Source: Closterium sp. NIES-65 (lineage: Eukaryota; Streptophyta; Zygnematophyceae; Desmidiales; Closteriaceae). Taken from it: a stretch of 64,000 nucleotides of DNA. Positions 15,201-53,611 of this stretch are shown here, one piece after another. The notes below the pieces were generated by a model. The model was given only the letters and a program-made list of their open reading frames with translations. It was not told where the DNA came from and made no database searches. Each line of letters opens with the position of its first letter. Positions within the stretch are counted from its first letter, which is position 1. Made by a program: the position numbers and the translations under genes. The stretch is from contig CANXME010002010.1 in assembly GCA_948144175.1 (NCBI GenBank), forward strand, positions 186,001 to 250,000. The letters are read 5' to 3'.

Positions 15201-15462
15201 ACACAGTCCTACCACCTGGGGCGAACGCATCAGTGGCATGTAGCTGTACAAGATAAAGCGGCCGCCTGGATCACCAACGGTATTCAAGGCGCGCGCTATA
15301 TAGCGAGAGGCTTGAATCAGCGCGCACTAGCCTCAATGAAGGAGGAACTGCAGAGGAGACACACTTGCACTAACCTTGCTGAGTTGCAGCGCTACCTTGG
15401 CCTGTACATCACCAGGGACAGGGCAGCTCGCACCATTATGTTGACACTGTCGCATATGGTCA
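12240..15462 (+). pseudogene. Cop1-b protease tail, integrase, linker and RT start, heavily mutated
   Basis: Readable pieces: protease tail (SFTRNLVGVGHLHDLGV, about 12,318); integrase zinc-binding part (LWHHRLGHPSFPRL, about 12,587, and CTPCVEG, about 12,700); integrase core (VVDDYSCYTMVFPL, about 12,850, and LNGVAKQRVRLVMEVARTS, about 13,070); the QDV-like ATFDESVCYY segment (about 13,420); a G/V-rich and AGCAGGAG-rich linker (13,670-14,560); linker C-terminus (14,855-15,145); RT start (15,150-15,320). Near 15,322 the RT jumps from KARYIARGLNQ straight to MKEELQRRHTCTNLAEL. About 170 codons including YVDD are therefore lost. Many stops and frameshifts. Confidence 0.85.
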
Positions 15463-15600
15463 TGTCAGAATCCCAACCACTAGACCATTGGGATAAAAGG
15501 GCTTGTTAAGTAGCGGGTCAGTGCGCCCATAACCCCCCAGGCCAACGTGCCTGTAACCCTTCCCTAGGATCAATCGGGGATCACCAGTGGACCTCTGAAA
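15463..15600 (-). repeat. 3' terminal repeat of the TRIM
   Basis: 138 bp, matching 15,670-15,807 except near its outer base pair (TTTCAG for TGTCAG at the start on the minus strand). Confidence 0.9.
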
Positions 15601-15631
15601 CCCCCCCGCACTGGGATGCCCGAAGTGCATA

Positions 15632-15700
15632 CACCAGGATTCGAACCCGAGACCTTCGCTCTGATACCATGTCAGAATCCCAACCACTAGACCATTGGGA
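15632..15700 (-). promoter_or_regulatory. tRNA-like A box and B box across the TRIM LTR-PBS junction
   Basis: On the minus strand an A-box-like TGGTCTAGTGG (near 15,683-15,693) is followed about 40 bases later by GGTTCGAATCC (near 15,637-15,647), a perfect B box. Between them TCTGA/TCAGA can pair around a 7-base loop where a tRNA anticodon arm would be. A 5-bp T-arm-like stem with a TTCGAAT loop can form. No acceptor stem is evident, so this is a tRNA-like pol III promoter rather than a functional tRNA gene. Transcription is inferred. Confidence 0.6.
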
Positions 15701-15807
15701 TAAAAGGGCTTGTTAAGTAGCGGGTCAGTGCGCCCATAACCCCCCAGGCCAACGTGCCTGTAACCCTTCCCTAGGATCAATCGGGGATCACCAGTGGACC
15801 TCTGACA
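15670..15807 (-). repeat. 5' terminal repeat of the TRIM
   Basis: 138 bp, minus-strand ends TGTCAG and CTGACA. Its last 30 bases on the minus strand contain TGGTCTAGTGGTT, a good match to a polymerase III A box. Confidence 0.9.
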
Positions 15808-15821
15808 GGTCAAGCAGATCC

Positions 15822-15929
15822 TTGTGTAGGCTATAGTGGGGTATCCCATAGGGGGTACAACCCAATTAGGGTTTCCTATTTGTACTCACTTCGTTCATAG
15901 TCATTTCATTCCTCGTTCTAACTTTCTCA
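15822..15929 (+). repeat. 5' LTR of Cop1-c, lacking its outer 25 bp
   Basis: Starts inside the LTR at TTGTGTAGGCTATAGTGGGG and ends TTTCTCA before the PBS. One difference (T/C near the end) from 23,040-23,147. Confidence 0.88.
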
Positions 15930-15943
15930 TGGTATCAAGCAGG
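15930..15943 (+). other. Primer binding site of Cop1-c
   Basis: TGGTATCAAGCAGG directly follows the LTR. It matches the plant copia initiator-Met site TGGTATCAGAGC at its first eight bases and approximately thereafter. Confidence 0.75.
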
Positions 15944-16029
15944 TTCCCCCGTGGGAACTGTGCTTAGGGCCCACCACATCGAACTTTTTTTTCTGCCCGG
16001 AGCGCGCTCCGGGCCCTTTCTCTTACTTT

Positions 16030-16750
16030 TTTTCGATCTGCCCTAACGGCCCCTCGACGCCCGCGTGCCGCCCTTAGACGCCCACGCGCCGCCCGTCCTG
16101 GCCCCTAGACGCCCGCGCGCCGCCCTGAGACGCTCGCGCGCCGCCCGTCCGGGCCCCTAGACACCTGCGCGCCGCCCGTCCAGGCCCCGCGCCGCCCGCG
16201 CGCTGCCCTTCGAGCCCGCGCGCCGCCCGTCCAGGCCCCACGCTGCCCGCGCGCTGCCCTTAGTGCCCGCGAACCGCCCGTCTCGGCCCCCCCTAGACGC
16301 CCGCGCGCTGCCCGCCAGGCCCCTCGACGCCGTGCGCCGCCCGATCCGGCCCCACGCCACCCGTGCGCCACCCGTCCCGGCCGCGCACACCCGTCCCGGC
16401 CCCTCGTCGCCCGTGCGTAGCCCGTCCCGGCCCCGCTCCCAGCCGCCCGTGCGTCACCCGTCCCGGCCCCGCTCCCAGCCGCCCTTGTGCCACCCGTCCC
16501 GGCCCCGCTCCCAGCCGCCCGTGCGCTACCCGTCCCGGCCCAGCTCCCGGCCACCCGTGCACCACCCGTCCCTGCCGTGAGCCACCGGCCCGAGCCGCCT
16601 GCGCAGCTGTGGAGCCGAGCCGCCGGAGCCGCCTGTGCCGCTGACCGCCCGAGCCGCCCCAGCCGCCCGAGTCGCCCGAGCCGCCCCTGCCGCCCGAGCC
16701 GCCCGAGCCGCCCGAGCCGCCCGAGCCACCTGAGGAGCCGAGCCGATGGT
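16030..16750 (+). repeat. C-rich leader repeats of Cop1-c
   Basis: The leader consists of degenerate units built on CGCCCGTCCCGGCCCC (about 16,060-16,580) and then GCCGCCCGA units (about 16,610-16,740). It lies between PBS and the gag start. No conserved protein is encoded. Cop1-d has a leader of the same style but different unit sequence. Confidence 0.85.
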
Positions 16751-16852
16751 GCCGACGTGCTGCTGTTGCTGCTGGGCCAGCCGAGCTGCCGTGTAAGCTG
16801 TGCTGCTGTGCTGCCCGACCCGTCCTGTCTGGTGAGACCGCCGGCTGCAGTC

Positions 16853-18763
16853 ATGGCTACCCCTAGTGTCCTAGCTTTTGACGCTGAGGGTCGTGCCATT
16901 GACTTTGAGGTCTGGGTCGACGACCTGCAGCTGTTCTTGTAGTGCGATAGGGTAGACGACCTTTCTCTCTTTGACCTTACCTCTGGCGCCGTCCCTGCCC
17001 CTGCTGCTGATGCTGACCCCACTGTTCGCTCCAAGTGGGCCACACGCGATGCTGCTGCACGTCTTGCTGTGCGTCGCCACCTGCCTACCGCTGAGCGTGC
17101 ACACTTTAGTCAGTACAAGAGTGCCCAGACCTTGTGCGACGCTGTAGTTGCGCGCTACTCCTCCCCTGCCACTGCTGCACTGAGCCGCCTCATGCTCCCC
17201 TTCCTCTTCCCTGACCTCGCCGCCTTTCCCACTGTCGCTGATCTCATTACGCACCTCCGCACTAGTGACACCCGCTACCGCGCTGCGCTTCCTGCTGACT
17301 TCTGCGCCAAGAACCCCCCCCCCATGTACATCACTCTCTACTTTCTAGTCACTCGCCTCCCTGACTCCCTTCGTGTAGTCCGGGACCACTTCCTCGCGGT
17401 CTGTCCCACCACTCTCACAGTCGACAGCCTCGAGAAGGCCCGCTTAGCGGCGGAGAAGAGCATCGTCGCTGTAGGAGCCTCTCGAGGTGACCCCCGCGCC
17501 CCCATCTTTGAGGGGTGTTCTCCTTCCCCTCTCTTGCCCTCTGTCGCCTCTGCTGCTGCAGCCGACCTCGTTGGTCTTGAGTCGGTCGGTGCGGCGTCTG
17601 CCCCTAGCGGGAGACGCCGCTCTGGCAAGGGCAAGGGGGGCAAGGGAGCGGGTGGGGCCAGCGGGGGCGGTGGAGGTGGAGGTGGAGGCGGCGGAGGGAG
17701 TGGGGGTGGCGGTGGAGGTGGTGGCGGGGGTGGGGGTGCTAGTGGCGGCAGTGGAGGCGGGGGTGGCGGCGGCAGTGGCGGTGGGAGCGGAGGTGGCGGA
17801 GGCGGCGGCGGTGGAGGCGGCGGCGGTGGAGGCGGAGGCGGGGGTGGCGGTGGTGGAGGTGGTCGGAGTGGCGCTTCGCAGCGGAGCAGCACTATGGGTG
17901 GTCAGCGCCAGCAGCAGCAGCAGCAGCGTTCTCGCGACGTCCCCACCCCTCAGCAGCTCCGTGAGTGGTACACGCAGCGTCAGCGCGGTGGGGGTTTTGG
18001 TCCCTGCACCTACGTACTCCGCACTGGCGACCGCGCTGGAGAGCAGTGTGGGGGTACCCACACCGCCCAGCGCTGCTTTGGTCGCCTGACGGACGCTTGG
18101 CGCCAGCAGTTCCCGGAGGCCGCAGAGATCCCCCGCTGGGGAGAGCTGTCTAGGGCTGGTGTCGCTATCTTTGATCTTGATTTTGATGCTATCCTTGCTG
18201 CCATGTATGTTGTGACCATTAGTGATGAGGGTGACTGCTACCGGTGTTTCCCGCCCGACCCGGGCATTGGTACTACTGCTCTAGGTGCTTGTGAGGCTAC
18301 TGCTCTAGGTGCCAGTGCGTCTGTGCTCTCAGGTGCTGGTGAGGCTGCTCTCTCAGGTACTAGTGAGTCTGCGCTCTCAGGTACTATGTCGGCTTCGGCC
18401 TCCCACACCTTCACACTTGACTCTGGAGCGTCTCGCTCCTTCTTTCGGGACCGCACCACACTCACGCCGCTTAGTCGGCCGGTTGCGGTGTCCCTGGCTG
18501 ACCCCTCTGGGGCTCTTGTCCTGTCTCACTTCTCCACAGTCCTCCCGTGTCCGGCGGCTCCCTCTGGCACCCTGTCTGGTCTCTACCTCCCCTCGTTCTC
18601 TACGAACTTGGTGAGTGGTGCTGACCTACAGGATGTGGGAGTCCACCAGTTCCCCCCCGCTCGTCAGCGAGTGACGCACTGCACAGAGGCTAGCACAGGT
18701 CGTCACCTGGCTACGTTTACACGTCAGCCAGGGTCGAGCTGCAGCGTCCAGGTCTGGTCCTGA
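16853..18763 (+). pseudogene. Cop1-c gag and protease, one TAG and a 3' frameshift
   Basis: The start ATPSVLAFDAEGRAIDFEVW aligns with the Cop1-d gag start at 60,018. TAG at 16,940-16,942 replaces a Gln codon in Cop1-d. The capsid domain follows (FSQYKSAQTLCDAVVARYSS; FPTVADLITHLRTSD; VTRLPDSLRVVRD). A roughly 100-residue Gly run (about 17,656-17,870) leads to a conserved Cys/His block, CTYVLRTGDRAGEQC, then CGGTH and QRC, in place of a CCHC knuckle. The protease motif LDSGASRSFF is at about 18,418-18,447. The frame stops at 18,763, where about 30 bp present in Cop1-d are missing. Confidence 0.92.
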
Positions 18764-21700
18764 GTCTGCCCCCTGTTCGTGTCGTCGCCTGTCTCACGAG
18801 ACTCTCCTCTGGCACCACCGCCTGGGTCACCCCTCTCTGCTTCGGCTCAGAGGCATGGCCTCCCGTCTTCTTGTGTCTGGTCTTCCCCGGTCCCTCCCTC
18901 CCCTTCCTCAGGGCCCTGGCCCTACCTGTGTCCCCTGTGTCGAGGGACGCCAGCGTGTTGCCCCTCACTCCTCCCAGTTTCCTCCGACAGAGGCTCCGTT
19001 GCAAACGCTTCACATGGACGTGTGGGGCCCTGCCCGCGTCCGTGGACTCGGTCACGAGCGCTACTTCCTGTTGGTGGTTGACGACTACTCGCGTTACACC
19101 ACAGTCTTCCCCTTGCGCAGCAAGGGTGATGTCACTGAGGTGCTGATCGACTGGATCCGCGCAGCTCGTCTCCAGCTCAGGCAGAGCTTTGGCTCGGACT
19201 TTCCTGTGTTGCGTCTGCACTCGGACAGAGGCGGGGAGTTCTCCTCTGGCCTTCTGCGTGCCTACTGTCGTGCGCGAGGCATCCGTCAGACCTTCACGCT
19301 TCCAGACTCACCGCAGCAAAATGGGATTGCAGAGCGCCGCATTGGCATGGTCATGGACGTCGCTCATATGTCTATGATGCATGCGGCTGCCCCCCATTTT
19401 CTGTGGCCGTTTGCGGTCAGGTACGCGGCGCATCAGATCAACCTCCACCCCAGGGTCTCCAGGCCGGAGACCTCCCCAGCCCTGCTGTGGACGGGGAAGG
19501 TTGGCGATGCGTTGGCGTTCCGGGTCTGGGGATCTCGGGCGTTTGTCCGCGACTTGTCTGCGGACAAGCTGTCCCCTCGCGCTGCTCCCTGCGTCTTCCT
19601 GGGGTTCCCCCCCGACGCCCCTGGGTGGCAGTTCTACCACCCCACCTCTCGCCGTGTTCTGTCCTCCCAGGACGTCACGTTCGACGAGTCGGTACCCTAC
19701 TACCGCCTCTTCCCCTACCGCACTCCGTCCCTCCCCCCACCCCCGCTCTTCTTGGTACCAGGTCCCCCCCCGGTAGACCCCCTTCCCCCTCAGGGTCCTG
19801 CCCCTTCAGGTGTGTCCCAGGTAGACGCGGTCAAGCCTGTCGAGGTCACTGGTGACTCTGGTGCTGCTGTGCGTGCTGAGCCTAGGGGTGCTGTGCCTGG
19901 GGGTGCTGAGCCTGGGGGTGCAGAGCTTGGGGGTGCGGAGTCTGGGGGTGCTGAGCCTGGGGGTGCTGAGCCTGGGGGTGCTGAGCCTGGGGATGCTGAG
20001 CCTGGGGTTGCTGAGCCAGGGGGTGCTGAGCCTGGGGGTGCTGAGCCTGGGGGTACTCAGACTGGAGGTGCTACGCCTGGAGGTGCTTTGCACGAGGGTC
20101 CTGAGCCTGGAGGTTCTTCGCCTGGAGGTTCTTCGCCTGGAGGTTCTCTGCCTGCTTCGTCTCGCCGAGAGCCACTCTCCCCACAGGAGCTGTGTGAGTG
20201 GTTTGCCTGGCGCTGGAGGCGTGCTGCTGGTGCTGGAGGTTCTTCGGCTGCTGAGGGTGCTGCTGCCGCGCGTCCCGCAGGTGCTCGTACTGGGAGCACT
20301 GGAGCTGCTGGGCCTGCAGGTTCTACTGGAGCTGGTGCTGCTGAGCGTGTTGGCGCTGAGACTACCACTGGTCGTCCGACTGGCAGTGCTCGTGGTGCTG
20401 TTGGAGGTTCTGGGGCTGCTGGAGGTGCTGCTGGGGGTTCTGGAGCTACTGGAGGTGCTGCTGGAGGTGCTGCTGGAGCGGGTACCCCTGCTGGGGGTAC
20501 TGGTGCTGTCCCTGCTGTTTCTAGCGTCGCCACGCGGCCCCGACCGTACTTCGTTCCACTCCTGCAGCAGGTTCTTGGTCTTACACCTTCTCCTGGTCCT
20601 CCTCCTCCTCCCTTAGAGGGTCCACAGCCTGTCCAGTCACAGTCACAGCTACAGCCTGCCTCCCCTTTGCCTGCTCCTTCTCCCTACGCTGGTCCGACTG
20701 GAGGTCTTACAGAGCGTCGTGAGCCTGCGTCTCGTCCTGCGTCGCCTGTTCGTGCTGCACACACTAGTGGTCGCGGTTCGCGTCAGCGTCCTCCTCCTGT
20801 CCCTGGCACGCACAGGATGTCTCAGCGTCCGTCTACTGCTCCTCTGCGTGCCCCTTTGCCTTCTCCTCCTGCTTCCTCTCTTCCTGCTCTTGCCGACCCG
20901 GAGTCGGACTCTCTTCGTGCTGCCAGTCCTACTGTCACGCGTCTCCTTGCTACTGCCGTCACTGACCCTTCTTTCGAGTCTTCTGCTGCGTCTGCCCTTG
21001 TTACTGAGCTCGTCGACTTTGCTGCGCGCTGTCGTCTAGACTACGCTGCTAGTCTTGTCGCTGAGTCTGAGTCTACCTGTCCTCCGTCCGTCGGGGGTGA
21101 GTGTGCCCTTGGCACGGACGTCCTTGAGGACAGGCAGGAGGAGTTGCAATGTCTGGCCGCCGCTTCACCTCATCTCGCATCTGTACTGCTCACCCCTGAG
21201 GGAGACCCGGATTCACTAGACATCCCGACTCCGCGCTCTTATGCGGAGGCGATAGAGGGTCCCTGCTCCTCTCAGTGGTAGGCAGCTATGGATGCAGAGA
21301 TGGCTTCCTGGAAGTCCACAGGCACCTACGTTGACGCTGTTCCCCCTCCTGGGGCGAACATCGTCAGTGGCATGTGGATCTTCAGGGTGAAGCGGCCGCC
21401 GGGTTCTCCGCCTGTTTTCAAGGCGCGTTACGTGGCTCGTGGCTTCAGTCAGCAGCAGGGAGTTGACTACTTTCAGACCTTCTCCCCCACCCCAAAGATG
21501 ACCACTCTTCGGGTACTGCTGCACGTTGCTGCTCACCGTGACTACGAGCTGCACTCTCTCGACTTCACCACTGCTTTCTTGCAGGGCAGCCTGCACGAGG
21601 AGATCTGGCTGCGTCGCCCACCTGGCTTCACTGGGTCTTTCCCTCCTGGTACCCAGTGGAGTCTCCGGCGTCCAGTCTACAGTCTCCGCCAGGCGCCGCG

Positions 21701-22802
21701 TGAGTGGCACGACACACTGAGGACTACGCTGGCGGCACTTGGGTTTGCTCCTTCCACTGCAGACCCGTCGCTGTTTCTGCGCACCGACACCTCTCTGCCG
21801 CCGTTCTACATCCTCGTGTACGTCGACGACTTGGTCTTTGCCACAGCTGACACTGCTGGACTCGCCTACGTGAAGTCCGAGCTGCAGAAGAGACACGCGT
21901 GCACTGACCTGGGTGAACTGCGCAGCTACCTTGGCTTGCAGATCACCCGGGACAGAGCACGCCGCACCATTACCCTGACTCAGTCACACATGGTGCAGCA
22001 GGTCCTTCAGCGATTCGGCTTCACGTACTCCTCGCCTCAGGCCACTCCTCTGCCTACTCGCCACTCGCTCTCAGCTCTGCCTTCGGATGAGTCCGTAGAG
22101 TCGAGTGGCCCGTATGCAGAGCTTGTTGGCTGCCTCATGTACCTGATGACCTGCACTCGACCTGACCTTGCATAGCCTCTTATCATTCTCGCACGCTATG
22201 TTGCTCCTGGGAGACACCGACCAGAGCACATGGCTGCAGCGAAGAGGGTGTTGCGCTACTTGTGCAGTACGTCGGGCATGGGGCTAGTGCTTGGAGGGCG
22301 CAGTCCAGTGGTCCTCACTGGGCACGCGGACGCTTCTTGGGCTGACGACCAGGCTACGCAGCGGTCGTCACAGGGTTACACCTTCAGCCTTGGTTCCGGC
22401 TCTGTTTCGTGGCGGGCTACCCGCTCGTCTTCTGTTCTCGGCTCTAGTTGTGAGGCTGAGATCTACGCCGGGGCTATGGCTGCCCAGGAGCTTCGCTGGC
22501 TCACCTACCTGCTGACCGAGCTTGGAGAGCCGCCTCGTTCTCCTCCAGTCCTGTACGTAGACAACAAGGCCATGCTGGCCTTGTGTCGAGAGCAGCGACT
22601 GGAGCACAGGACAAAGCACATTGCTCTCCGCTACTTTCTTGCTCGTGAGCTACAGCAGCGTGGACAGTTGCGACTTGCGTACGTGGCCTCTGAGGCCAAC
22701 ACTGCTGATGTCTTCACCAAGGCACTTGCGCCTTGTGATCATCAGCGCTTCTGCACGCAGCTGGGTCTTGTGCCTGTCTTGCCTCACTTGCTCACTTCTT
22801 GA
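18764..22802 (+). pseudogene. Cop1-c integrase, reverse transcriptase and RNase H, two TAG codons
   Basis: One frame from 18,855 to 22,802. Order: zinc-binding HHCC part (LWHHRLGHPS lies just upstream in the shifted zone; CVPCVEGRQR near 18,935); integrase core with VVDDYSRYTT (19,075), LHSDRGGEFSSG (about 19,217) and QQNGIAERRIG (about 19,315); GAEPG-type linker (about 19,870-20,060); RT with MWIFRVKRPPG (21,372), FLQGSLHEEIWLRRPPGF and VYVDDLVFAT (about 21,818); RNase H with GHADASWADD (22,321), SSCEAEIYAG and VDNKAMLAL. TAG at 21,279-21,281 (Gln in Cop1-a) and TAG at 22,173-22,175 (Tyr in Cop1-a) are the only breaks. This is the best reference for family 1 in the window. Confidence 0.94.
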
Positions 22803-23003
22803 CCTTGCTTGTACCTTCACCTATATATACTCTTGCTCTTGCTTGCTTGACTCTTGTATATCTCTATATGTGATCTTGCATGTGAACTGGCCTTCTGGCC
22901 TTTGAACTTGTGCTCGGAATGTGTGGTGACTTTGTGATCCACCCTGAGCTTTGCTTTGCTTTGCTTGACTGGTCTTGTGACCCCTTGTTCTCCCCCACTT
23001 TGC

Positions 23004-23014
23004 CTATGGGGGTG
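23004..23014 (+). other. Polypurine tract of Cop1-c
   Basis: CTATGGGGGTG directly before TGTCAG of the 3' LTR, identical to the tract of Cop1-a. Bases 22,803-23,003 are the non-coding 3' region with TATATA runs. Confidence 0.75.
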
Positions 23015-23147
23015 TGTCAGAACATTATAGCATACTTTTTTGTGTAGGCTATAGTGGGGTATCCCATAGGGGGTACAACCCAATTAGGGTTTCCTATTTG
23101 TACTCACTTCGTTCATAGTCATTTCATTCCTCGTTCTAACCTTCTCA
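23015..23147 (+). repeat. 3' LTR of Cop1-c
   Basis: 133 bp, TGTCAG...TTCTCA, the complete LTR form of this copy. Cop1-b resumes at 23,148. Confidence 0.9.
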
Positions 23148-31016: not shown

Positions 31017-31552
31017 TATGGCCCCGGATATAGGCGCTGGCCTATTACAGGCGCCGGCGCTTCTATCTGGAGCATGGCGCTTATGGCCGAAACTCGATTA
31101 TAAGCGCCCCCCTGGAAGAAAACCATTACTTATTATAAGCGCCCCCCCCCCCCCCCCCCCCCAATTTTTTATTCAAATCTCTATTTTAATCGGTAACAAA
31201 TTTCAGTTTTGCAGCGAGTCAAAATTAATTTTCGCTTCGTTTGACTCGCGAAGACCTGACTGGCTGCGCATCCAGTCAGGATGTGCTGGCTGGCATGCCT
31301 GCAAAGTGACGCGAATTTGCTTGTGTACAGGAAGCAGAATCGCTTGCGCGCGATTCTGCTTTGTGACGCTTTTTTATTTCGACTCGTTTGAAATGGCAAC
31401 AATGAAAGGTACAGTTTGGTACCTTTAAAGTATAAATTTGTATTTGTCATTATATAAGCGCCGGCGCTTATGGCCGTTACTCAATTACAAGCGCCACCCC
31501 TAAAAAATCCGTACTTATTATAAGCGCATATGCGCTTATATCCGGGGCCATA
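31017..31552. mobile_element. MITE with TGGCCCCGGATATA terminal inverted repeats and TA duplication
   Basis: Ends TGGCCCCGGATATAGGCGC (31,019 on) and its inverse GCGCTTATATCCGGGGCCA (to 31,550), 18 of 19 matching, flanked by TA on each side as in Tc1/mariner-like elements. The 532 bp have no transposase. Inside each end a roughly 65-bp direct repeat starts GGCGCTTATGGCCG (about 31,076 and 31,459). The motif TTATAAGCGC recurs several times, and a 21-base C run lies at 31,142-31,162. The family is not named here because several TA-specific superfamilies would fit. Confidence 0.8.
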
Positions 31553-31555
31553 CGG

Positions 31556-31981
31556 TGTTGGGCTGAGATAGCCCCTTAGGATCTTTGCAAGGGATAACTC
31601 TAGGTGAAGTAGTTGTAATAGCGGAAGCGTTTAGTGAAGAATTTGAACCGACCTTGCACTGGTGTGTGAGAGCAAAGTTGATTGAAATAAACAAGCAAAT
31701 ACAAGGATTTATATAAGAGTACAGGGAATAGATAACTGTATTGCTGTTGCGGTTCGATATAGCGCGACTCGGGCAACTGCTCTGTAACGAGTCAGTTGTG
31801 TGTCCTTAACTGTCGCGCTGTAATTGTCGAGTCAAAGGTCAGCGACCTTTGACTTTCTCGTAACCTCCAGGCGGTTACCCTAACCTCCGAGGTTGACTCG
31901 ATGCTTCGATTGGGACTGCTTCGCTTGGTACCTTGGATTTTGATACGACAGAAGCGCACTTAGGACTTATTGTTTCCAACA
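31556..31981 (-). repeat. 3' LTR of Cop4
   Basis: TGTTGG...CCAACA, 426 bp. The gag-pol stop codon (31,960-31,962) lies inside it, and the purine tract AGCGAAGGGGAG just before it is therefore also coding. Confidence 0.95.
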
Positions 31982-34900
31982 CTCCCCTTCGCTTCTGGAG
32001 TGTTACTGCTGGTGACGTGGCCTTGTCCAGTCAGCATCATGCAGTATTCGAACTTCTGCTTGCCGAGTTTCTTGGTCAAGTAATCGGCTGCCATCTCGGA
32101 TGTTGGACAGTATGACAGATCGAGTTTCCCTTTTTCTATCTCGTCCTTCACGAAGAAATAGCGCAGGGCGATGTGTTTCGTCCTGTTTGCGAAGCCGTTT
32201 TTGTTGGCGATGCGAATTGCTGACTGGTTGTCGCAGAACACGGTGAAGCTGGGTAACTCGGCTAGCTTCGCTTCTTCCAGTAGTTCGCGAAGGTAAAGTC
32301 CCTCCTTGGTGGCTGAGCAGAGTGCAATATATTCTGCTTCTGCTGAAGATAGTGCGATTAACTCCTGCTTGCTCGACTGCCAGGAGATAGGACCGATAGG
32401 CTCAAGGCGGTAGACATAGCCGGTGCGTGAGCGCCTGTTGTCGGTGTCGCCGGCGTGATCGGCGTCGACGTAGCCGATTAGCTTAGTCGGTGTAGCTGCG
32501 CTCTTGTGGTAGGTTAGCCCGATCGTCGCGGTGCTGACGAAGTAGTGGAGAGCGCGATCAAGTTCCGCCAGGTGTTCAGCTTCAGGCTTCTTGAGATAGG
32601 TGGCGAGCTGACTTGCGGAGTAGGATAAGTCAGGACGGCAGGTGACGGCGGCGAATAGCAGGCATCCGAGCTTCTTCTGATAGTCGCGTATGCCGGCGGG
32701 CTTGAGTAGAGTAGTTCGTTCCTTCTCGGTTCCTGATGTGTAGCGGTAGGGCGTGGAGATGGCGCTTGGTGTGAGGCTGAAACGTTTCGCGATGGTGTCG
32801 GCGTATTTCTCGGCGCTTAGATAGATGGCGTTTTCTTCTTCGCGGATGTTGAGCCCGAGGTACTGTGTAACGGTGGAGGAGACCGTGAGCGTGAGGTCTT
32901 TCTGGAGCTCTCCTTCGAACCACGTGGCGATGCCGTCGGTTGACCCAATGTAGAGGAGATCGTCCACGTAGACGATCAGGAGAACGTAGTCGCTTCCCTT
33001 AGTGAGGCGGTACATGCCTTGGTCGTGAGGTAGTTGACTAAAGCCGATGCGGATGAGACGGGCGTGCAGGTACTGCTGCCACAGTCGCGGTGCCTGCTTG
33101 ATCCCGTAGAGCGACTTAAGTAGTTGACAGATTCGGTTGGGTTCGCCGTGGGAACCGTGCGGGAGCTCGACGTAGATTTCTGCATCCACAGGTGCGTAGA
33201 GGAAGGCATTCGCGACGTCGATCTGCCGTAACTTCTTCTTCTTCATGGCGGCAATGGCGAGGAGAATTCGGAGTGACGTGTGGCGGCTGACTGGAGCAAA
33301 GGTCTCGGTGAAGTCTCGTCCTTGCTCTTGGTCGAATCCACGTACGACCCAGCGTGCTTTGAATTTTTCGATCGTGCCGTCTGCTTTCGTCTTGATGCGG
33401 AAGACCCATTTCCCGGTAAGGATGGTTTTGTTCCGTGCCACGCTTACGGGAACAACCTTCCAAGTGTTGCGTTCCTCTAATGCCTTCAGTTCTCTATCCA
33501 TGGCTTCACGCCATTTCTCCCTGTGTTCCCCCCCCAGAGCCTGCTGAACCGTTGCAGGCTCCTTAGGAAGCGAGCTGCGTGTGTTCCCGTGGACTGCGGT
33601 GACGAGGCCGAGGATTTGCAGCCCAGTCTGTGAGTATCGAGGGAGTTCTGGATCCTCGGGATAAGCTGCTTCGTCTCCCGTTTCTGGGTCGGGCATGAAA
33701 TTTGGCCCTACCCTTTCTGCTTCGTTGGTGTTGACTGTCACAGGTGTTACGTAACCATCGTCGGCGAAACGGTAGAAGATTTCGGCGTTGTTACTGTCGC
33801 GAGGATTATCCTCATCCATGGGCACGTCGACGGAGCAGTATGGGAGAGGTTCGGCTTCTTCTGAGGTGTTGTCGACGTTCTGTTCATCCCAGTCTGCTTC
33901 GTCCGCTGCTGACGCGAAGGCTCGGTCACCACGAAAACCACTGGTGAGGTCCCGATTCTCGTGCAAGTTGGCGAGGTACGTCTGAAGGGTGAGTCTTTCG
34001 TAGAAGATCACGTCACGTGCTGCTACTGTTTCCTTTGTGTGGACGTCGAAGATTTTCCATGCGTTGTAATTTTTCTCGGTGCCGAGGTGTAGTCCCCACT
34101 GTGCCCGTTGCGAAAATCTTCCTGCTCGTGCTTCTGGGGGTCTGTACTGTACCATGCACCCGAAAACTCGTAACATTTTCGTGCTGCCCTGCTTCCCTGT
34201 CCACAGCAGATGCGGTGATGCGTTGTTCGGGAGTGACGACGACGACAACAAGTTGTGTAGCATGACAGCGTGGTCCATTGCTGCTGGCCACTGGTGGTTG
34301 GGTAGCCGCATGCCACGTAATAGTTTGCGCATGCTGTTCTGCAGGGTCCTGTTCAGTCGTTCTGCAACACCTTGCTGCTGATGTGCGTAAGGAAGGGAGA
34401 GGAGTTGCTTGATCCCCCTTTCCGCCAAGAACTGCTTGAAGCGGTGAGAGGTGTACTCGCCACCTCCGTCTGACTGGAATTTTTTCAGTTGTGTTCCAGA
34501 CTCTCTCTCTGCTATCGGTAGCCAGGCGGCGAATGCTGCGAGCGCCATGTCGCGGCTGGGTAGGTTGCGATGCCAGACGTATCGAGTGGCGGCGTCGATG
34601 AAGGTGATGGTGTAGTTGTAGTTGACTTGTCCTGGCTCGCGATTGTAGAGGATGTCGCTGTAGACTTTTTCGAGTGGTGCGTACGCTGGAGCGCTCGGGT
34701 TGTGATGTGAAGCAAACGGTCGATGAGGTAAGTCAGCTTCGGGACATATAAGGCAAGTCCCTCGTGCCTTCTGGAGTTCTCTGCCATCGGGTAGAAGTAG
34801 AGAATCTTTGTCAAGGACTCCTGCTCTTATCGTGTTATTCAAAACCGTGTTACTTGGATGTCCTGTTCGTGCGTGCCAGATCTCTTCAGAGGCACGGTGT

Positions 34901-37206
34901 CCAGGTGAACGCTGATATGCGTCGGAGTTGGAGTAAAAGCTGGCGACGAGGTTGGCGCTTCGGTGGACTTCACGTTGAGTCGGATTCAGCTGTTTCGCGG
35001 GTGTTGGTGGTGCTTCGTCGACTATGACTGGTGTCGTTGTTCCTGCTGCTGCTGATGTTGTTGCTGCTGCCGATGTTGTTACTGCTGCTGATGTTGTTGC
35101 TGCTGCCGATGTTGTTACTGCTGCTGATGTTGTTGCTGCTGCTGATGTTGTTGCTGCTGCCGATGTTGTTACTGCTGCCGATTGTCGAATTGTTGCTAAT
35201 GCTCGTGTTCGTTCTGCTTCAGGAATGGTGTGCGAGTACCAGAAGCCTCCTGGGCTGAAGTCGGGGTCGAGATCCGGAGGGTGTGTCCAGTCAGTGAAAT
35301 TCACGATGGCGTCGCTGTCTGCAGTGCCCAGGTCAGGAACGAAGTCGAGGACGAAGACGTTGTTCTTCAGCACTGCTTTCCCGATGTAGAGACCGCCTCT
35401 CCCGTGGTAAAGTTTGAACTCCTGGGTCGTGCTGTCGGCTTCCAGATGAATTCCTTTCGCCATCAACTGGCTAACGCTCAGTAAGTTGTAGCCGAGTCCT
35501 TCAGCGATGAGTACCTTAGACATGTGCAGTATGACATTTGTTTCTCTTGACTGAAGCTGTACCACTCCTTGTCTTCGTGTGCGCAGGTTTTGGTTGTTGG
35601 CAACCGTGATGATCACTTCCCGTTGGAGTCGATGTTCGCGTTGTACGAAACGCCCGGACGAGCACATGTGTTGCCCGCAGCAACTGTCCAAGAACCAGGT
35701 GTCTTGGCCGGACGGTTCACTTTGAGCGATGGCGGCGTACGTTGGATTCGGCTGGAGTAGCTCACGGCGAGGCGTTCTGTTGTCAAGCTCTTCTTCCGGT
35801 GAGTAGTGTGGTGGTGATTCGGTTGTACATGAATCGGTTATCTTCGTCATGCAGTTGATTATATTTCTTGCTCCTTGTGCAGGTTGTCCGGGTGAAGTCG
35901 TTGAAGCTTGAATAGTGGTCGTCGCACTTGCTTGTGTTGAAGCCATTTGGGAGCTTGAAGGTCGAAGTTGTCGCTGTGGTGCCGTTGATTGCTGACGATT
36001 CGGGCAGTGTGTGCGCGGGTGCCCTGAAGTCTTGCAGATGTGGCAGAAGGGAGGTACTATCTTCGGTTGCTGCTGTCGGTTGTTATAATTGCTGTGTCGT
36101 CGTTGAGTGTGGAATGCGAACTCTGATACTGTCGTTTTCTTCCTGTGTCGTTCTTCCTGCAGGTCCATATCTTGCTGCTCGGCATGTATTTCGGCGCAGA
36201 GTGCAGCTTCAGAGATTCTTCCGTGGGCTCGAAGAATGGCTTTGGTGGCGCGCCACTGAGGACCAAGCCCACCAATGATGACTGTCACGAAGGCGTCTTC
36301 AGAGATTGACCCTCCGCATCGAAGCAGCTTGTCGCGCAGTTCGCGACATCGGCTGATATACGCCAGTCCTTTTTCTCCTGGTTTCATTTCGACTGTCGTC
36401 AACTGCGCCATTAACCTGCTCTGGTTTACACTGTCTGTTGCTTGATACAGGTTCTTCAGATGGCTGTACGCGAGCTCCGCCGAGTTGCCGAAGGTCCGGT
36501 AAGAGCGAATGTTCTGCTGCTGAGTTGGTGTCACATTCCTCAATAGGATTGTATACGCCATCATTGATTGATACGTATACTGCTGCTTTTCATATTGTGT
36601 CCCGTTGGCTGGATACTGCAGGGACCCGTCGAAGAAGCCGAGTATCTGCGCGCCCTCCATCATCAGCTCGAATTCAAAGGACCAGGTAAAGAAGTCTTTG
36701 CCGTCGAAGGGTCTTGACGTTTGCAGTTTTAAGACGTGTGCAAACTGCGACTGAACTTGAAGTGCGTCCAGTGGTCTTTCTTGTCCAGGTGAAGGTTGCG
36801 GGTGGGGCACGAAGCTGATTGACCCGCGCTCGTACGGAGCAAAGGTAGGTTGCTGCTGCTGGTTTCCTCGCGCATATGACGACCCATCAAGACTCATGGG
36901 TGTCGCTCCGTTGTTGCTGTTGTGTGTTTGTGCAGGTCCCGACTGCTGGTGTTGTTCGTAGAAGGACATGAAGGAGAAAAATTTCTCCATCATGTTCTGG
37001 TCAAAGTCCGAAGGGTGGTTCATGGGGGTCTCGGTTGACGTTCCTCTTGGTCTTGTTGCCGTGCCTTCTTCTGTCTGCAGGCCAGAGGCTGACGGTGGAG
37101 TAGGAGTAGTGCCCGAGGAGCCATTAGGGGAGCTCCTTTCCTTGTTTGTTGCCATGTCTTGTAATGATATTGAAAAAAGAGTAGAGTTTCCCTTGTCTGC
37201 TCTCAT
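31960..37206 (-). CDS. Cop4 Gag-Pol polyprotein, 1,748 residues, intact
   Basis: Single-frame copia polyprotein. Approximate residues: capsid (UBN2-like) 150-350; zinc knuckle CHICKTSGHPRTHC at about 388; protease FLDSCCGQHM at about 506; a TTSAA repeat about 690-730; integrase zinc finger (WHARTGH, then CLIC) about 778-830; core with YSDI about 852, FQSDGGGEYTS about 911, GVAERLNR about 946; RT from about 1,228 with KWVFRIKTKADG and VYVDDLLYIG about 1,410; RNase H with GYVDADHAGD about 1,584, SSAEAEYIAL and CDNQSAIRIA. The first ATG overlaps the PBS; MATNKERSS at residue 18 is an equally possible start. The protease has Cys after DS where Gly is usual. Otherwise nothing is missing. Confidence 0.96.
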   Translation of the reverse strand: MRADKGNSTLFSISLQDMATNKERSSPNGSSGTTPTPPSASGLQTEEGTATRPRGTSTETPMNHPSDFDQNMMEKFFSFMSFYEQHQQSGPAQTHNSNNGATPMSLDGSSYARGNQQQQPTFAPYERGSISFVPHPQPSPGQERPLDALQVQSQFAHVLKLQTSRPFDGKDFFTWSFEFELMMEGAQILGFFDGSLQYPANGTQYEKQQYTYQSMMAYTILLRNVTPTQQQNIRSYRTFGNSAELAYSHLKNLYQATDSVNQSRLMAQLTTVEMKPGEKGLAYISRCRELRDKLLRCGGSISEDAFVTVIIGGLGPQWRATKAILRAHGRISEAALCAEIHAEQQDMDLQEERHRKKTTVSEFAFHTQRRHSNYNNRQQQPKIVPPFCHICKTSGHPRTHCPNRQQSTAPQRQLRPSSSQMASTQASATTTIQASTTSPGQPAQGARNIINCMTKITDSCTTESPPHYSPEEELDNRTPRRELLQPNPTYAAIAQSEPSGQDTWFLDSCCGQHMCSSGRFVQREHRLQREVIITVANNQNLRTRRQGVVQLQSRETNVILHMSKVLIAEGLGYNLLSVSQLMAKGIHLEADSTTQEFKLYHGRGGLYIGKAVLKNNVFVLDFVPDLGTADSDAIVNFTDWTHPPDLDPDFSPGGFWYSHTIPEAERTRALATIRQSAAVTTSAAATTSAAATTSAAVTTSAAATTSAAVTTSAAATTSAAAGTTTPVIVDEAPPTPAKQLNPTQREVHRSANLVASFYSNSDAYQRSPGHRASEEIWHARTGHPSNTVLNNTIRAGVLDKDSLLLPDGRELQKARGTCLICPEADLPHRPFASHHNPSAPAYAPLEKVYSDILYNREPGQVNYNYTITFIDAATRYVWHRNLPSRDMALAAFAAWLPIAERESGTQLKKFQSDGGGEYTSHRFKQFLAERGIKQLLSLPYAHQQQGVAERLNRTLQNSMRKLLRGMRLPNHQWPAAMDHAVMLHNLLSSSSLPNNASPHLLWTGKQGSTKMLRVFGCMVQYRPPEARAGRFSQRAQWGLHLGTEKNYNAWKIFDVHTKETVAARDVIFYERLTLQTYLANLHENRDLTSGFRGDRAFASAADEADWDEQNVDNTSEEAEPLPYCSVDVPMDEDNPRDSNNAEIFYRFADDGYVTPVTVNTNEAERVGPNFMPDPETGDEAAYPEDPELPRYSQTGLQILGLVTAVHGNTRSSLPKEPATVQQALGGEHREKWREAMDRELKALEERNTWKVVPVSVARNKTILTGKWVFRIKTKADGTIEKFKARWVVRGFDQEQGRDFTETFAPVSRHTSLRILLAIAAMKKKKLRQIDVANAFLYAPVDAEIYVELPHGSHGEPNRICQLLKSLYGIKQAPRLWQQYLHARLIRIGFSQLPHDQGMYRLTKGSDYVLLIVYVDDLLYIGSTDGIATWFEGELQKDLTLTVSSTVTQYLGLNIREEENAIYLSAEKYADTIAKRFSLTPSAISTPYRYTSGTEKERTTLLKPAGIRDYQKKLGCLLFAAVTCRPDLSYSASQLATYLKKPEAEHLAELDRALHYFVSTATIGLTYHKSAATPTKLIGYVDADHAGDTDNRRSRTGYVYRLEPIGPISWQSSKQELIALSSAEAEYIALCSATKEGLYLRELLEEAKLAELPSFTVFCDNQSAIRIANKNGFANRTKHIALRYFFVKDEIEKGKLDLSYCPTSEMAADYLTKKLGKQKFEYCMMLTGQGHVTSSNTPEAKGSVGNNKS
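35035..35190 (-). repeat. Coding trinucleotide-rich repeat in Cop4 (TTSAA units)
   Basis: GTTGTTGCTGCTGCCGAT-like 15- to 18-bp units, encoding runs of TTSAA between protease and integrase. Keeps the frame open. Confidence 0.85.
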
Positions 37207-37210
37207 ACCA
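37199..37210 (-). other. Primer binding site of Cop4
   Basis: TGGTATGAGAGC on the minus strand, directly after the 5' LTR. It differs from the initiator-Met site TGGTATCAGAGC at one base, the same variant as in Cop5. Confidence 0.85.
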
Positions 37211-37636
37211 TGTTGGGCTGAGATAGCCCCTTAGGATCTTTGCAAGGGATAACTCTAGGTGAAGTAGTTGTAATAGCGGAAGCGTTTAGTGAAGAATTTG
37301 AACCGACCTTGCACTGGTGTGTGAGAGCAAAGTTGATTGAATTAAACAAGCAAATACAAGGATTTATATAAGAGTACAGGGAATAGATAACTGTATTGCT
37401 GTTGCGGTTCGATATAGCGCGACTCGGGCAACTGCTCTGTAACGAGTCAGTTGTGTGTCCTTAACTGTCGCGCTGTAATTGTCGAGTCAAAGGTCAGCGA
37501 CCTTTGACTTTCTCGTAACCTCCAGGCGGTTACCCTAACCTCCGAGGTTGACTCGATGCTTCGATTGGGACTGCTTCGCTTGGTACCTTGGATTTTGATA
37601 CGACAGAAGCGCACTTAGGACTTATTGTTTCCAACA
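37211..37636 (-). repeat. 5' LTR of Cop4
   Basis: 426 bp, one mismatch to the 3' LTR, TGTTGG...CCAACA. Confidence 0.96.
37362..37370 (-). promoter_or_regulatory. TATA box of the Cop4 5' LTR
   Basis: TATATAAAT on the minus strand, about 150 bp before the LTR end. Transcription would start some 25-35 bp further toward lower coordinates. Confidence 0.6.
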
Positions 37637-37858: not shown

Positions 37859-40800
37859 TCAAGGCAAATCGAGCTTTTCTGTTTCATCTGTGCCTTGGCT
37901 CTCTCTACCCCTATTCCCACCACCATCCACCTCTTGACTGCACCACTCGGAAACACCTTCCTCATTCCTGACGCAACCTAAAACTTGTTCCTGGCTCTCC
38001 ACATGCCCAACCTCCTGGTTCTTCTCACGCCTTTCCTGCTGATCCAAATACTCCGGCACTGACTCATCAACGGGACCAAGAGCTTCCAGGTGAAGGTTGA
38101 AGGCTTCGAAAAGCACCGAAGCAGCAGCTGCAGCACAGACCGGGTCAGCAACAGCAGGGAAGACAGGCAAAGGGTCAACAGAGGCAGCAGCAGGTGGTTC
38201 TGCAGGGTGGCGTGCTCTTTCATTTTTCCCTGCTACTGCAATCCCTCCTACAATATCCCCTGCTACAGTCTCCTGTGCTACAGCATCCCTCACTACAGCA
38301 GCTTCCACTATAGTCACCCCAGCCACAGCATCCATTGGGCTACAGCTGTCAACCTGAACCTCGCCTTCCTCCACTCCCTGTGCATCATTTCTGTAAGCAT
38401 CACTGCGACCAGCATTAGAATCATTGCCATCAGCATAGGCACCATTACCAAAATCACCAGTAGCACGAGCGGAAAAAACAGCAGCAGCACCAGAATTCAC
38501 AGCAGAGGAAGCAGCAGCAGTAGCAGTGGTGGCAGCAACAGCATCACAATTATCAGTTCTAGTATCTTCCTCTGTCTCTTCCGGTTCCCTGCTTGCAATA
38601 CCACCCCCCTTCTCATGCCTGTTCTGAGACGTCTCAACACTGATGTTGAAAACAGTCAAAACGCCACCAGCAGTACCATGTGCTTCACACTCACTGCTTC
38701 CCTCCGTGCCTTCCCCCACCACCTCCCCTTCTTCGATCGAGACACCCATGTTCTCGTTACACACATTCCCTTCCTCTACCCTCCCGTTCCTTATGGTCTC
38801 CTCCTCCCCTTCCTCTCTCCTCTCTCTCTCTGCTGCACCCTCCCCTTCCTCCACCGACACACCCCCATTCTTGCTACGTCCACCTGCCTCCACTTCGTCC
38901 CTCCCATTCCCACTCAACTCCTCGTCTCCCTTGTCCCTCCCAACCGTCGTACAGCCATTGCCCTCCTCGTGTCTCTGAGTCTTTCCCGACACCTCTTCTC
39001 CCTCCACCCTCCTCCCATTCTCCACGCGCCCTTCACTTTCCTCCTCTTTATTGCTCGCATGTCCAAGTTCAGCATCGGGTGTCACCCCTCCGTACTCCCC
39101 CTCCGTCCCTTCATGGCCCCCCTCATGCCTCTCCTTTTTCTCACCACACTCATCTGTGTCCTTCTCACAATTCAACTCCATTCCTCCTCGTCCTCCTCCT
39201 CCTCCTCCTCCTCCTCCTCCTCCTCCTCCTCCTCCTCCTCCTCCTCCTCCTTCTCCCCCAATTTCACGCTGACAGCTCGACGTCCTTGCAAAATCTGCGG
39301 GAGTAGCTGCCGCGTCAGCAATTAGAGGATCTGTAACATCAGCAGGTGGAGGGGGTGCCACGTCAGCAGCTAGTGGAGCAGCTGTCAGGGTCGCAAGTGG
39401 CTGGGGCAAAGCTGGGGAAGGTTTATTTGAGAAAGGAATATATGGGGAAGGATTATTTGCAAAGGGCTTATCTGAGGATGGGTTATTTGGAACAGGCTTG
39501 TGTGGGGATGGCAGCGTGCAGAGGGGTTGGGAAGGTAGGTGCTCCTCTGATGCTGACGTGGAGTCTCTAAACCCAGCTGGCGACTGGGAGTTTTTTAGGT
39601 TTGCCTGAGCTGCAGTTTTAATAGGCGACTGGGAGGACTTGAGAGGCGACTGGGAGGACTTGAAAGAAGCATCTTCCGAAGGAGAGGAGCTGATCACTAT
39701 AGGCAAGGACAGAAATGTGCCTTTTACTTCCCTGCTCTTGGACAGGGGAGGTAGGGCAGGAGGAAGAGGGGAGGCAGCAACAAGAGCAGTCTGAAGAGCA
39801 GGTGCAGCAGCATTAGCAGCGGGTGCAGCCGTTGCTCCGTTGCTCTCCACATTATAGTGCAGCCTTGGGTGCTTTGCAGGCATGGCAGCAGCACATCCGT
39901 CCCCACCGGCACCGGCATCTAGAACGTCCAGCGCCCACCTCTTCCGCCCCCCTGCTCTCACACACCCACCACCTTCCATGGCAGCACTGCTAGCTGCACC
40001 AGTGACACCACCAACACCAGCAGCAGCAGCAGCAGCAGCACAAGTAGCAGCAGCACCACTAGTAGCAGGAGCAGCAGCAGCACCACCACCAGTAATAGCA
40101 ACACCAGAAATAGCAGCACCAGAAGCAGCATTAACAGCACCAGCAGCAGCACCAGTAGCAGCAGCACCAGCAGCAGCAAAACTAATAGCACCAGCGGCAG
40201 CAGCACTAACTGCACCAACAGCAGCACTGACAGAAGCAGTAGCACAAGTAGCAGGAGAAGTAGTAGCACCAGCAACACCAGCAACACCAGAAAAACTAGC
40301 AACACCAGCAACACTAACAACACCAGCAACACTTACAACACCAGCAACACCAGCAGCACCAGCAGCACCAGCAGCACCAGTAGCAACAGTAGCACCAGCA
40401 GCACCAGCAGCACCAGTAGCACTTGTAGCAGCAGCAGCAGCATGAGGAATATCCAGATCCGCACGTTTCCTCTTCTTCGCCTCTCGCTCTAATCTCCCTG
40501 CCCCTCGTTCTCTCTCCTCCACTCCTTGCGCTTTCACAACACCACCTTCCACGTCACCACCTTCCACTTCACCACCTTCCACGTCACCACCTTCCACGTC
40601 ACCACCTTCCACGTCACCACCTTCCACTTCACCACCTTCCACTTCACCACCTTCCACCTCACCACCTTCCACGTCACCACCTTCCGCAAGTCCACCAGGA
40701 ATCACTTTCAGAATGTGAATGTCATGCTCCTGCTGCTGACACTCTGGTTGCCGCTGCTGCCACTGCCCCTCCTGCTGCTGTTGCTTCTCAATACCAGCAG

Positions 40801-43204: not shown

Positions 43205-43247
<43 letters not shown>

Positions 43248-43508
43248 CCAGCGGCAGCAGTAGCAGCAGTAGCAGCAGCAGCAGAAGCATCAATAGCAGC
43301 AGCACGGGCGTGGGGATGGAGAGATGCAACTTCCACAGGTACATGCGAGGCCTGCTGTGTGCCCAGCCCTGTGCTCAAAGCCTGCCGGGTGCTGTTGTGC
43401 AGTGCATCGCTGGATGTTGAACTTGTGGGCGGTGCAGTGCTGGGCAGTGGTTCAGAGGGGTATGCCTTTGGAGGTACCATGAGCCTCTCCATCAACCATG
43501 ATAGCGGC
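37859..43508 (-). CDS. Last exon of a large low-complexity host protein, function unknown
   Basis: The frame is open for about 1,880 codons from a proposed acceptor (TGTGTGCAG before base 43,508) to TGA at 37,859-37,861. I do not recognise the protein. It starts PLSWLMERLMVPPKAYPSEP. Then come poly-Ala and GAAGASD repeats, a long Glu/Gly-rich acidic part (EGGEGGEGG near 41,430), Pro-rich KPPLGNPPPEM motifs, ten or so EGGDVEGGE units (40,530-40,690), a basic KKRKR nuclear-localisation-like stretch (about 40,470), SSQSPLKSSQSPIK (about 39,640), a Gly run (39,180-39,250) and an acidic C-terminus. No catalytic domain was found. A disordered nuclear scaffold or regulator is an inference. Such a long open frame through non-repetitive parts argues that it is coding. 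Confidence 0.65.
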
Positions 43509-43560
43509 CTGCACACATGGGGAGGTGCGGCATACATGTCCGTGCATGCATCCACATGTG

Positions 43561-43862
43561 TGCACACACACATGCACACACACATGCACACACACATGCA
43601 CACACACATGCACACACACATGCACACACACATGCACACACACATGCACACACACATGCACACACACATGCACACACACATGCACACACACATGCACACA
43701 CACATGCACACACACATGCACACACACATGCACACACACATGCACACACACATGCACACACACATGCACACACACATGCACACACACATGCACACACACA
43801 TGCACACACACATGCACACACACATGCACACACACATGCACACACACATGCACACACACATG
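43561..43862. repeat. 12-bp minisatellite ATGCACACACAC, about 25 copies
   Basis: Near-perfect tandem array over about 300 bp. TG-rich on the minus strand, as intron sequence before an acceptor could be. Confidence 0.97.
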
Positions 43863-43984
43863 CAGATACATGCGAATACACATGCAGATACATGCGAACA
43901 CACATGCAGATACATGCGAACACACATGCAGATACATGCGAACACACATGCAGATACATGCGAACACACATGCAGATACATGAG
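43860..43984. repeat. 22-bp minisatellite CATGCAGATACATGCGAACACA
   Basis: Five to six near-perfect units directly abutting the 12-bp array and sharing the CATGC core, so probably derived from it. Confidence 0.95.
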
Positions 43985-44698
43985 CACATCACCGCCGTGC
44001 TTTCCGCACATGAGAGGTACTGGTGCATGTCAGCTCTTGTGGGTTGTATGACCGGGATATCCTCACATCTGGTGGGTGGGATTGCTTGTATCCTGGTTGC
44101 CAGACGAGAGGAGTGACAATAGCTTTCACTACAGCTTGAATTCACTGCATGCCGATGCGCCACTACACTTGAGATTATTCTGACTTGACAGTTGCTTGTT
44201 CGGCGTGAACCATTAGCCGTGCATCATTTCGAGGTGGTGCTGCTGTGCCTCACCTCAGGTGGGTGGTGTCGCGGCCGGCCACCACAGCTTCAATGCGCTC
44301 CGCCACTTCCATCTCTATGCGCGCTCTGGTCAGAGGGAGAGCGGGCAATCGGTGAAAGAGTGGAGAGGGGGAGAGTAAAACAGCGCAGGACAGGGAGGGA
44401 TAGGGAGGGACAGGGAGGGACAGAGAAGGGACAGAGAAGGGACGGGAGTAAGAGGAGGAGCTGTCACTGGTACTGCTGTTGCCGCTGCAGCTGCTGGCAC
44501 TTGTGCTGCCCCAAACCCAACACCCATCGTGCTCCCCCTCTCATTATGCTCCTCCGCCCCAATGAGGGCCCCTCCCTTTGTGTTTCCCATGCGCGTGTGC
44601 TTCCACTCCCATGGTGCTCTGCTCTCCCCGTGCCACAGTGCACCCCCTGCAACGGTGCACCAAGCACCCAGCCCCGTGGTGCCCCGCACGCTGCTCAC

Positions 44699-49400: not shown

Positions 49401-49424
49401 CTCCCCCTTGCACCCCACGCACAC

Positions 49425-53576: not shown

Positions 53577-53611
53577 GGCGTAGCAACGCTTGAGCGAGCA
53601 CTCCTAATCTA

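Follow-up and report, generated by a model that had tools for sequence, protein, structure and literature searches.

The 64,000-nucleotide stretch of Closterium sp. NIES-65 DNA analysed here (hereafter the window) contains a TRIM of 345 bp, which is too short for a reverse transcriptase and encodes no transposition proteins. How is such an element transcribed and copied? An earlier note, made from the letters of the window, had proposed that a tRNA-type promoter for RNA polymerase III (pol III) lies across the junction between the 5′ LTR and the PBS, and that the PBS is part of a tRNA-like fold. The analysis reported here supports the first proposal as a motif arrangement and weakens the second.

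All the structural parts that the note had named (138-bp repeats, a 69-bp interior, a PBS, a purine tract and a perfect GGTCA TSD) are present (Table 1), and the repeats differ at one base. The TG/CA ends that it had ascribed to the repeats hold for the 5′ LTR, which runs from TGTCAGA to TCTGACA, but not for the 3′ LTR, which starts with TT instead of TG on the minus strand owing to the mismatch at 15599. The small size (below 1000 bp) with two LTRs, the similarity among copies, the PBS beside the 5′ LTR, the polypurine tract (PPT) beside the 3′ LTR and the short, fixed TSD of the integrase type (5 bp; 67 of the 72 multi-LTR insertions, those with two or three LTRs, have it exact) are those of a TRIM. 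No ORF of at least 150 aa overlaps the element, and the two mechanical ORFs of at least 30 aa found on it (129 and 104 aa) both cross an element end into the flank. The A box occurs in both LTRs and the B box once, in the interior. The two boxes, said to be about 40 bases apart, are indeed present, here and throughout the family, at a measured distance of 47 bp from start to start.

Table 1. Positions in the window of the TRIM, its observed and proposed motifs, and neighbouring elements.
Feature	Position	Strand	Remarks
TRIM element, 345 bp	15463-15807	minus	near-full-length copies, 98-96% identical, elsewhere in the same genome
5′ LTR (element orientation), 138 bp	15670-15807	minus	TGTCAGA...TCTGACA
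3′ LTR, 138 bp	15463-15600	minus	single mismatch at 15599; TT start
Interior, 69 bp	15601-15669	minus	
PBS TGGTATCAGAGC	15669-15658	minus	directly after 5′ LTR; complement of host initiator tRNA-Met 3′ end
A box TGGTCTAGTGG	15694-15684	minus	within 5′ LTR
B box GGTTCGAATCC	15647-15637	minus	interior, downstream of PBS
Second A box	15477-15487	minus	within 3′ LTR; no element B box downstream
Polypurine tract, G7	15607-15601	minus	abuts 3′ LTR
TTTT of 5′ LTR	15702-15705	minus	7 bp ahead of A box
TTTT of 3′ LTR, proposed pol III terminator	15495-15498	minus	kept in 50/50 3′ LTRs
CAA, proposed pol III start site	15710-15712	minus	
Inverted repeat ATCCCAA...TTGGGAT	15677-15701	minus	around A box; paired variant ATCCCAG...CTGGGAT in other copies
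LTR block GGGTTATGGGCGCAC, 5′ LTR copy	15742-15728	minus	14/15 complementary to initiator tRNA anticodon arm
LTR block GGGTTATGGGCGCAC, 3′ LTR copy	15535-15521	minus	near 3′ end of modelled RNA
TSD GGTCA, perfect pair	15458-15462 and 15808-15812	unstranded	
Copia element adjoining the TRIM	15822-23147	plus	candidate mobiliser family; outside TRIM; rve and RVT_2 domains
Copia element	48786-54676	minus	615-bp LTRs, 100% identical
Copia element, 1748-aa open frame	31549-37636	minus	LTRs 99.3% identical
2050-aa open frame	37859-44011	minus	extended CVCM repeat, low-complexity stretches; may not be a gene

A search for further copies with TSDs, which the note had recommended, was carried out in the assembly from which the window comes (874 Mb, 2,400 contigs) and revealed a family. 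With the window TRIM as the query, 43 matches (42 nearly full length and 1 short) were obtained after 40 of the 298 first-look candidates had been scored. Subfamily B (375 bp, with a 141-bp LTR and a 93-bp interior) gave 996 first-look candidates and a third TRIM type 1,904, which are candidates only; these first-look counts are loose and overlap between queries. Exact TSDs flanked 26 of the 30 loci fetched with the window TRIM (5 bp) and likewise 26 of the 30 fetched subfamily B loci. The 90 fetched loci represent 85 distinct flank pairs, comprising 69 two-LTR, 3 three-LTR and 13 one-LTR insertions, among which exact 5-bp TSDs were found at 64, 3 and 3, respectively. The three one-LTR cases with an exact TSD (contigs C1871 and C1759) have nearly the same flanks and are therefore probably one duplicated insertion; several of the remaining one-LTR cases are fragments. 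For comparisons among copies we used 50 two-LTR copies (23 of subfamily A and 27 of subfamily B), which are 60 minus four duplicated loci and six multi-LTR arrays. The two LTRs were identical in 12 of them (9/23 in A and 3/27 in B), so insertion went on until recently. The family is large and recently active.

Several individual copies deserve mention. Tandems of the form LTR-interior-LTR-interior-LTR, each surrounded by one exact TSD, were seen at L006, L019/L024 and L044, the last of which appears by eye to be a recombinant with B-type outer LTRs and an A-type middle LTR. A single solo-LTR insertion, its flanks identical or almost so, recurs at L032, L038, L040, L041, L043, L047, L051 and L052 (contigs C1871 and C1759) and is apparently carried by a repeated unit. 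Another copy, L046, is inserted in CCCTAAA repeats. A TT start of the LTR was frequent among the fetched copies, to which we attach no weight because the query itself contained that variant. Viral contigs, searched with one exact TRIM pattern, gave 0 matches, and plasmids gave no match.

The primer can be assigned from the host's own tRNA genes. A pattern search of the genome recovered 27 initiator-tRNA-like genes (control, 0); four were fetched, and ARAGORN read all four as tRNA-Met (CAT). These host genes are like those of land plants, and together with the copy in CCCTAAA repeats and 146 matches to chlorophyll a/b-binding proteins they indicate a green-lineage host. The TRIM PBS is fully complementary to the acceptor end and its CCA over 14 nt for the L091 gene and over 12 nt for L092 and L094, while the L093 gene is one base off near its 3′ end; the identity thus holds for three of the four fetched genes. 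Six copies with identical LTRs (L025-L030) have one additional C in the PBS (TGGTATCCAGAGC), and their LTRs end in TCTGAGA instead of TCTGACA. The extra-base PBS also occurs at at least six places among the listed matches of the A box-PBS-B box pattern, and a genome pattern search found no initiator tRNA gene with an extra base matching TGGTATCCAGAGC. The bulged PBS seems to be inherited rather than corrected by primer copying.

Because the A box belongs to the LTR and the B box to the interior, the LTR/PBS junction divides what has the form of a tRNA-type promoter. In the window, this is the only A and B box pair spaced by 35-70 bp, even when one mismatch is allowed in each box. Dinucleotide shuffles of the element produced an exact pair in 0 of 2000 cases, and a pair with one mismatch in each box in 1 of 2000. 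Genome-wide, the ordered pattern TAGTGG-N(10-22)-TGGTATC-N(12-20)-GGTTCGANTCC, which joins both boxes and the PBS, was present at 3,220 places (1,571 + 1,649) in 874 Mb, and its reversed control at 0 places in the same genome. A looser tRNA-like pattern of A and B boxes that did not demand a PBS matched 19 places, and all 19 had a PBS-like stretch between the boxes. The A box was exact in 44 of the 50 two-LTR copies (23/23 in A, 21/27 in B). The B-box motif GGTTCGANTCC was exact in 39 (21/23 in A, 18/27 in B) and had at most one mismatch in 49 (22/23 in A, 27/27 in B); the majority B-box change in subfamily B falls at a free N position. At the level of motifs, these results bear out the claim of a tRNA-type pair straddling the LTR-PBS junction, and the arrangement is a trait of the family. 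Concerning the source of the A-box half, which we take to resemble tRNA-Glu, the single pattern tried for a tRNA origin matched TRIM-like places only, and Rfam RF00005 gave 63 scored matches on the genome, with a few scores repeated many times, and was of no help in tracing it.

From this arrangement we infer that the element is a pol III TRIM with its promoter split across the 5′ LTR/PBS junction, giving an RNA of about 218 nt that is primed by tRNA-iMet and mobilised by a Copia element; we consider this reading, as a whole, probable. TFIIIC would contact both boxes, one on each side of the junction, with a start site some 18 bp upstream of the A box, near the CAA at 15712; CAA is a start motif of plant tRNA genes. 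The polymerase would copy the PBS, the interior and the G7 tract, enter the 3′ LTR and terminate at its TTTT, just ahead of the second A box, so that the product would have terminal repeats (R) of about 11 nt. Initiator tRNA-Met would then prime minus-strand synthesis at the PBS. In each LTR of the window TRIM, CAAGCCC stands directly before a TTTT that lies 7 bp before the A box. This TTTT is kept in all 50 3′ LTRs and in 45 of the 50 5′ LTRs, and in 48 of the 50 copies no further TTTT occurs between the A box of the 5′ LTR and the TTTT of the 3′ LTR. A difficulty is that pol III would have to pass the TTTT of the 5′ LTR about 8 nt after the proposed start. Since the B box is lacking from solo LTRs and 3′ LTRs, which have only an A box, these should be silent, and each complete insertion would rebuild the promoter.

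The strongest competing explanation is that the element is an ordinary TRIM transcribed by RNA polymerase II (pol II), in which the boxes have no promoter role and either descend from a tRNA or SINE fragment once captured or extend the complementarity to the primer tRNA. With one gap, the interior adjacent to the PBS can be matched to the tRNA-iMet complement in 20 of 22 columns, and the first part of the stretch between the PBS and the B box may therefore be an extended primer pairing. The B box, however, lies beyond that stretch. It is also missing at five non-TRIM places of the fetched DNA (two in L026 and one each in L060, L083 and L088) where TGGTATCAGAGC follows an LTR-like end, which excludes the B box as a regular extension of this PBS; in L038 these 12 letters occur in another context. 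Among 78 occurrences of GGTTCGANTCC in the fetched DNA and the window (overlapping loci counted apart), 77 are in TRIM copies (69 assigned by PBS-like letters within 40 bases upstream and 8 by eye) and 1, at L089, lies elsewhere.

Conservation of the boxes was also compared with that of their surroundings. The majority LTR bases of subfamilies A and B differ at 10 of the 60 positions 1-60, at 1 of the 78 positions 61-138 and at 0 of the 11 positions of the A box, which is nonetheless no more conserved than the neighbouring LTR positions 61-113. Within subfamily B, the boxes differed pairwise by 3.9% (A) and 5.0% (B), as against 2.5% for LTR positions 1-60 and 0.0% for the PBS. Decay after insertion therefore reaches both boxes, and these comparisons do not single out selection on them, which suits pol II transcription with vestigial boxes. 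Against it, both boxes persist in the two subfamilies even though the spacer from the PBS to the B box is 3 nt shorter in B, and TATAAA, TATATA and AATAAA are absent from the 5′ LTR in all 50 copies. The missing TATAAA is no proof of pol III transcription, since it is found in two of the three Copia LTRs of the window and the third (el1) is also without it. Taken together, we regard pol II transcription with non-functional boxes as unlikely.

A second alternative is the one contained in the earlier note, namely that the LTR, PBS and interior fold as a tRNA mimic in which the PBS serves as an anticodon arm, and that this fold matters for the element. The proposed hairpin, TCTGA-CATGGTA-TCAGA, does appear in the predicted fold; its five-pair stem is kept in 42 of the 50 copies, and the exact 17 letters of the arm occur in 23 of the 27 subfamily B copies but in only 6 of the 23 of subfamily A. 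The region overall gave no sign of a tRNA in the tests by tRNA models and folding that the note had called for: ARAGORN found no tRNA in the window, Rfam found none over 15450-15820 even at E values up to 10, and the predicted fold of the promoter region was no more stable than those of shuffled versions (z −0.20; 67 of 200 equalled or exceeded it in stability). The would-be 5′ strand of the acceptor, ATCCCAA, pairs with TTGGGAT after the A box, so that the acceptor halves do not pair with each other, and the extra PBS base and altered LTR end of L025-L030 change the proposed anticodon-like loop. The tRNA-like fold of which the hairpin on the PBS was to be a part is not supported, and tRNA models recognised no cloverleaf such as a tRNA gene or functional tRNA mimic would have. 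Because the stem is kept in 42 copies, the idea of a fold is weakened rather than excluded, and we hold a functional tRNA mimic to be very improbable. As for the hairpin around the A box, its G...Y variants outnumber the unpaired A...C variant genome-wide (440 vs 38), with 68 G...C and 32 G...T, by eye, among 100 of the 440 that were listed; these counts, which are of related copies rather than of events, would fit pairing.

That the element might be a tRNA-derived SINE with chance direct repeats, as the two boxes and the small size could suggest, has a negligible probability given two near-identical LTRs, a PBS, a G7 tract, TSDs fixed at 5 bp instead of variable in length and the existence of one-LTR and three-LTR forms; no single tRNA-SINE unit, the form that the note had said would contradict it, was seen among the fetched copies, which are LTR pairs with mostly exact TSDs. 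Cassandra was likewise rejected, since no Rfam family reached its gathering score in the window and no 5S match was found at E values up to 10 in 15450-15820.

The LTR block GGGTTATGGGCGCAC is complementary to the anticodon arm of the initiator tRNA at 14 of 15 positions, a level reached by 25 of 5000 shuffled LTRs and by 10 of 1,852 138-mers of the window (the TRIM has 3 of these, 2 lie by the adjoining Copia element's PBS region, and 5 are in other places). The 11-mer GGGTTATGGGC occurs 172 times in the 359,755 bases that were read (overlaps counted): 154 occurrences lie behind a TRIM LTR motif, 15 are in TRIM LTRs by eye and 3 are in iMet genes. The complementarity is suggestive of a bipartite PBS resembling that of Ty3, in which the block and the PBS would bring the RNA ends together. 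The block in the 3′ LTR may hold by its anticodon arm the same tRNA that primes at the PBS, joining the RNA ends for strand transfer over the very short R. The fuller version, in which only a complete insertion builds the promoter and a single initiator tRNA ties the unit-length RNA into a ring by pairing through its 3′ end with the 5′ PBS and through its anticodon arm with the 3′ LTR, is tentative, and we would sooner doubt it than adopt it. If true, this tRNA bridge would stand in for most of the R region that is missing.

Reverse transcriptase and integrase would be supplied by a Copia element, and we infer as the candidate mobiliser a Copia family whose LTRs start with TGTCAGA; this LTR start and the LTR length class are common to the TRIM and that family. 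The member adjoining the TRIM has a 3′ LTR of 133 bp (from 23015) starting with TGTCAGA, and its own PBS reads TGGTATCAAGC. By eye, its 5′ end (window 15813-15930) lacks the first LTR bases present in the 3′ LTR, and other coding-looking DNA and the TRIM lie upstream of the shortened LTR. A relative at L026, read at its end, has a 134-bp LTR (99 of 126 aligned columns identical) that starts with TGTCAGA, ends with TTTTGACA and is accompanied by an exact TGGTATCAGAGC PBS. The TRIM and L026 LTRs agree at 77 of 122 columns in a permissive gapped alignment, which is no convincing likeness beyond the termini. Other Copia elements with a TGGTATCAGAGC PBS, of the L083 type, may also act as mobiliser. 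TSDs of 5 bp are among the features described for the Copia partners of fungal Helenus (PMC10886601). As to the two other Copia elements of the window, the one at 31549-37636 has a PBS, TGGTATGAGAGC, one base off the initiator tRNA complement, and L083 is by eye a look-alike with the exact PBS; in that at 48786-54676, a copy (98.9%) of part of the element's own pol region (53622-54061, like 50580-51022) separates the PBS-like TGGTATGAGAGC from the 5′ LTR.

TRIMs with a tRNA promoter were already published in 2024 as Helenus or TRIMp3 (Kojima 2024, PMC10886601). As generally described there, Helenus elements are 311-1263 bp long, occur in fungi and plants and, like the Closterium TRIM, have tRNA-like A and B boxes, a PBS, a PPT and 5-bp TSDs; one plant family, from Selaginella, has a 120-bp LTR and an 85-bp interior. 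Whereas Helenus has both boxes inside the LTR, the Closterium TRIM has its B box in the interior and the PBS between the boxes, a contrast that rests on the general description of Helenus, so that the Selaginella family could share the Closterium layout. We do not call the element Helenus as defined, because its tRNA-like sequence is not wholly inside the LTR; it is a TRIMp3/Helenus-like element, and the split across the LTR boundary is what is new. A literature search, judged by titles and abstract openings, found no further paper on a split promoter or on other tRNA-promoter TRIMs.

According to the same account, pol III transcription of Helenus is unproven, and only Cassandra has been validated experimentally among pol III TRIMs (PMC10886601). 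Cassandra is described there as giving a pol III transcript from the 5′ LTR to the 3′ LTR with a very short R of 18 bp. The Closterium TRIM would resemble it in its predicted pol III-type promoter and its LTR-to-LTR RNA with a very short R, but the promoter of Cassandra is of the 5S type and lies within the LTR. Ty3 holds the initiator tRNA by 5′ PBS and 3′ U3 segments (PMC5371799, PMC11381356). The TRIM would have in common with it the tRNA-iMet primer and, should the LTR block act in this way, a second complementary segment that lies in U3 close to the RNA 3′ end; Ty3, as these sources describe it, is in contrast autonomous and contacts the tRNA at the acceptor stem and the T-psi-C and D arms rather than at the anticodon arm. 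Complementarity to the anticodon arm of the initiator tRNA recalls the elements with an anticodon-loop PBS, for which fungal Helenus, its Copia partners and Ty5 are named (PMC10886601, PMC5371799), but the Closterium TRIM has that complement within its LTR, and its actual PBS corresponds to the tRNA 3′ end.

Pol III TRIMs are a young and experimentally thin class, to which this analysis would add a high-copy, recently active family. The split design predicts silent solo LTRs, a PBS under double constraint and a transcript of roughly 218 nt whose R is tiny, and the family bears on how such short RNAs manage strand transfer.
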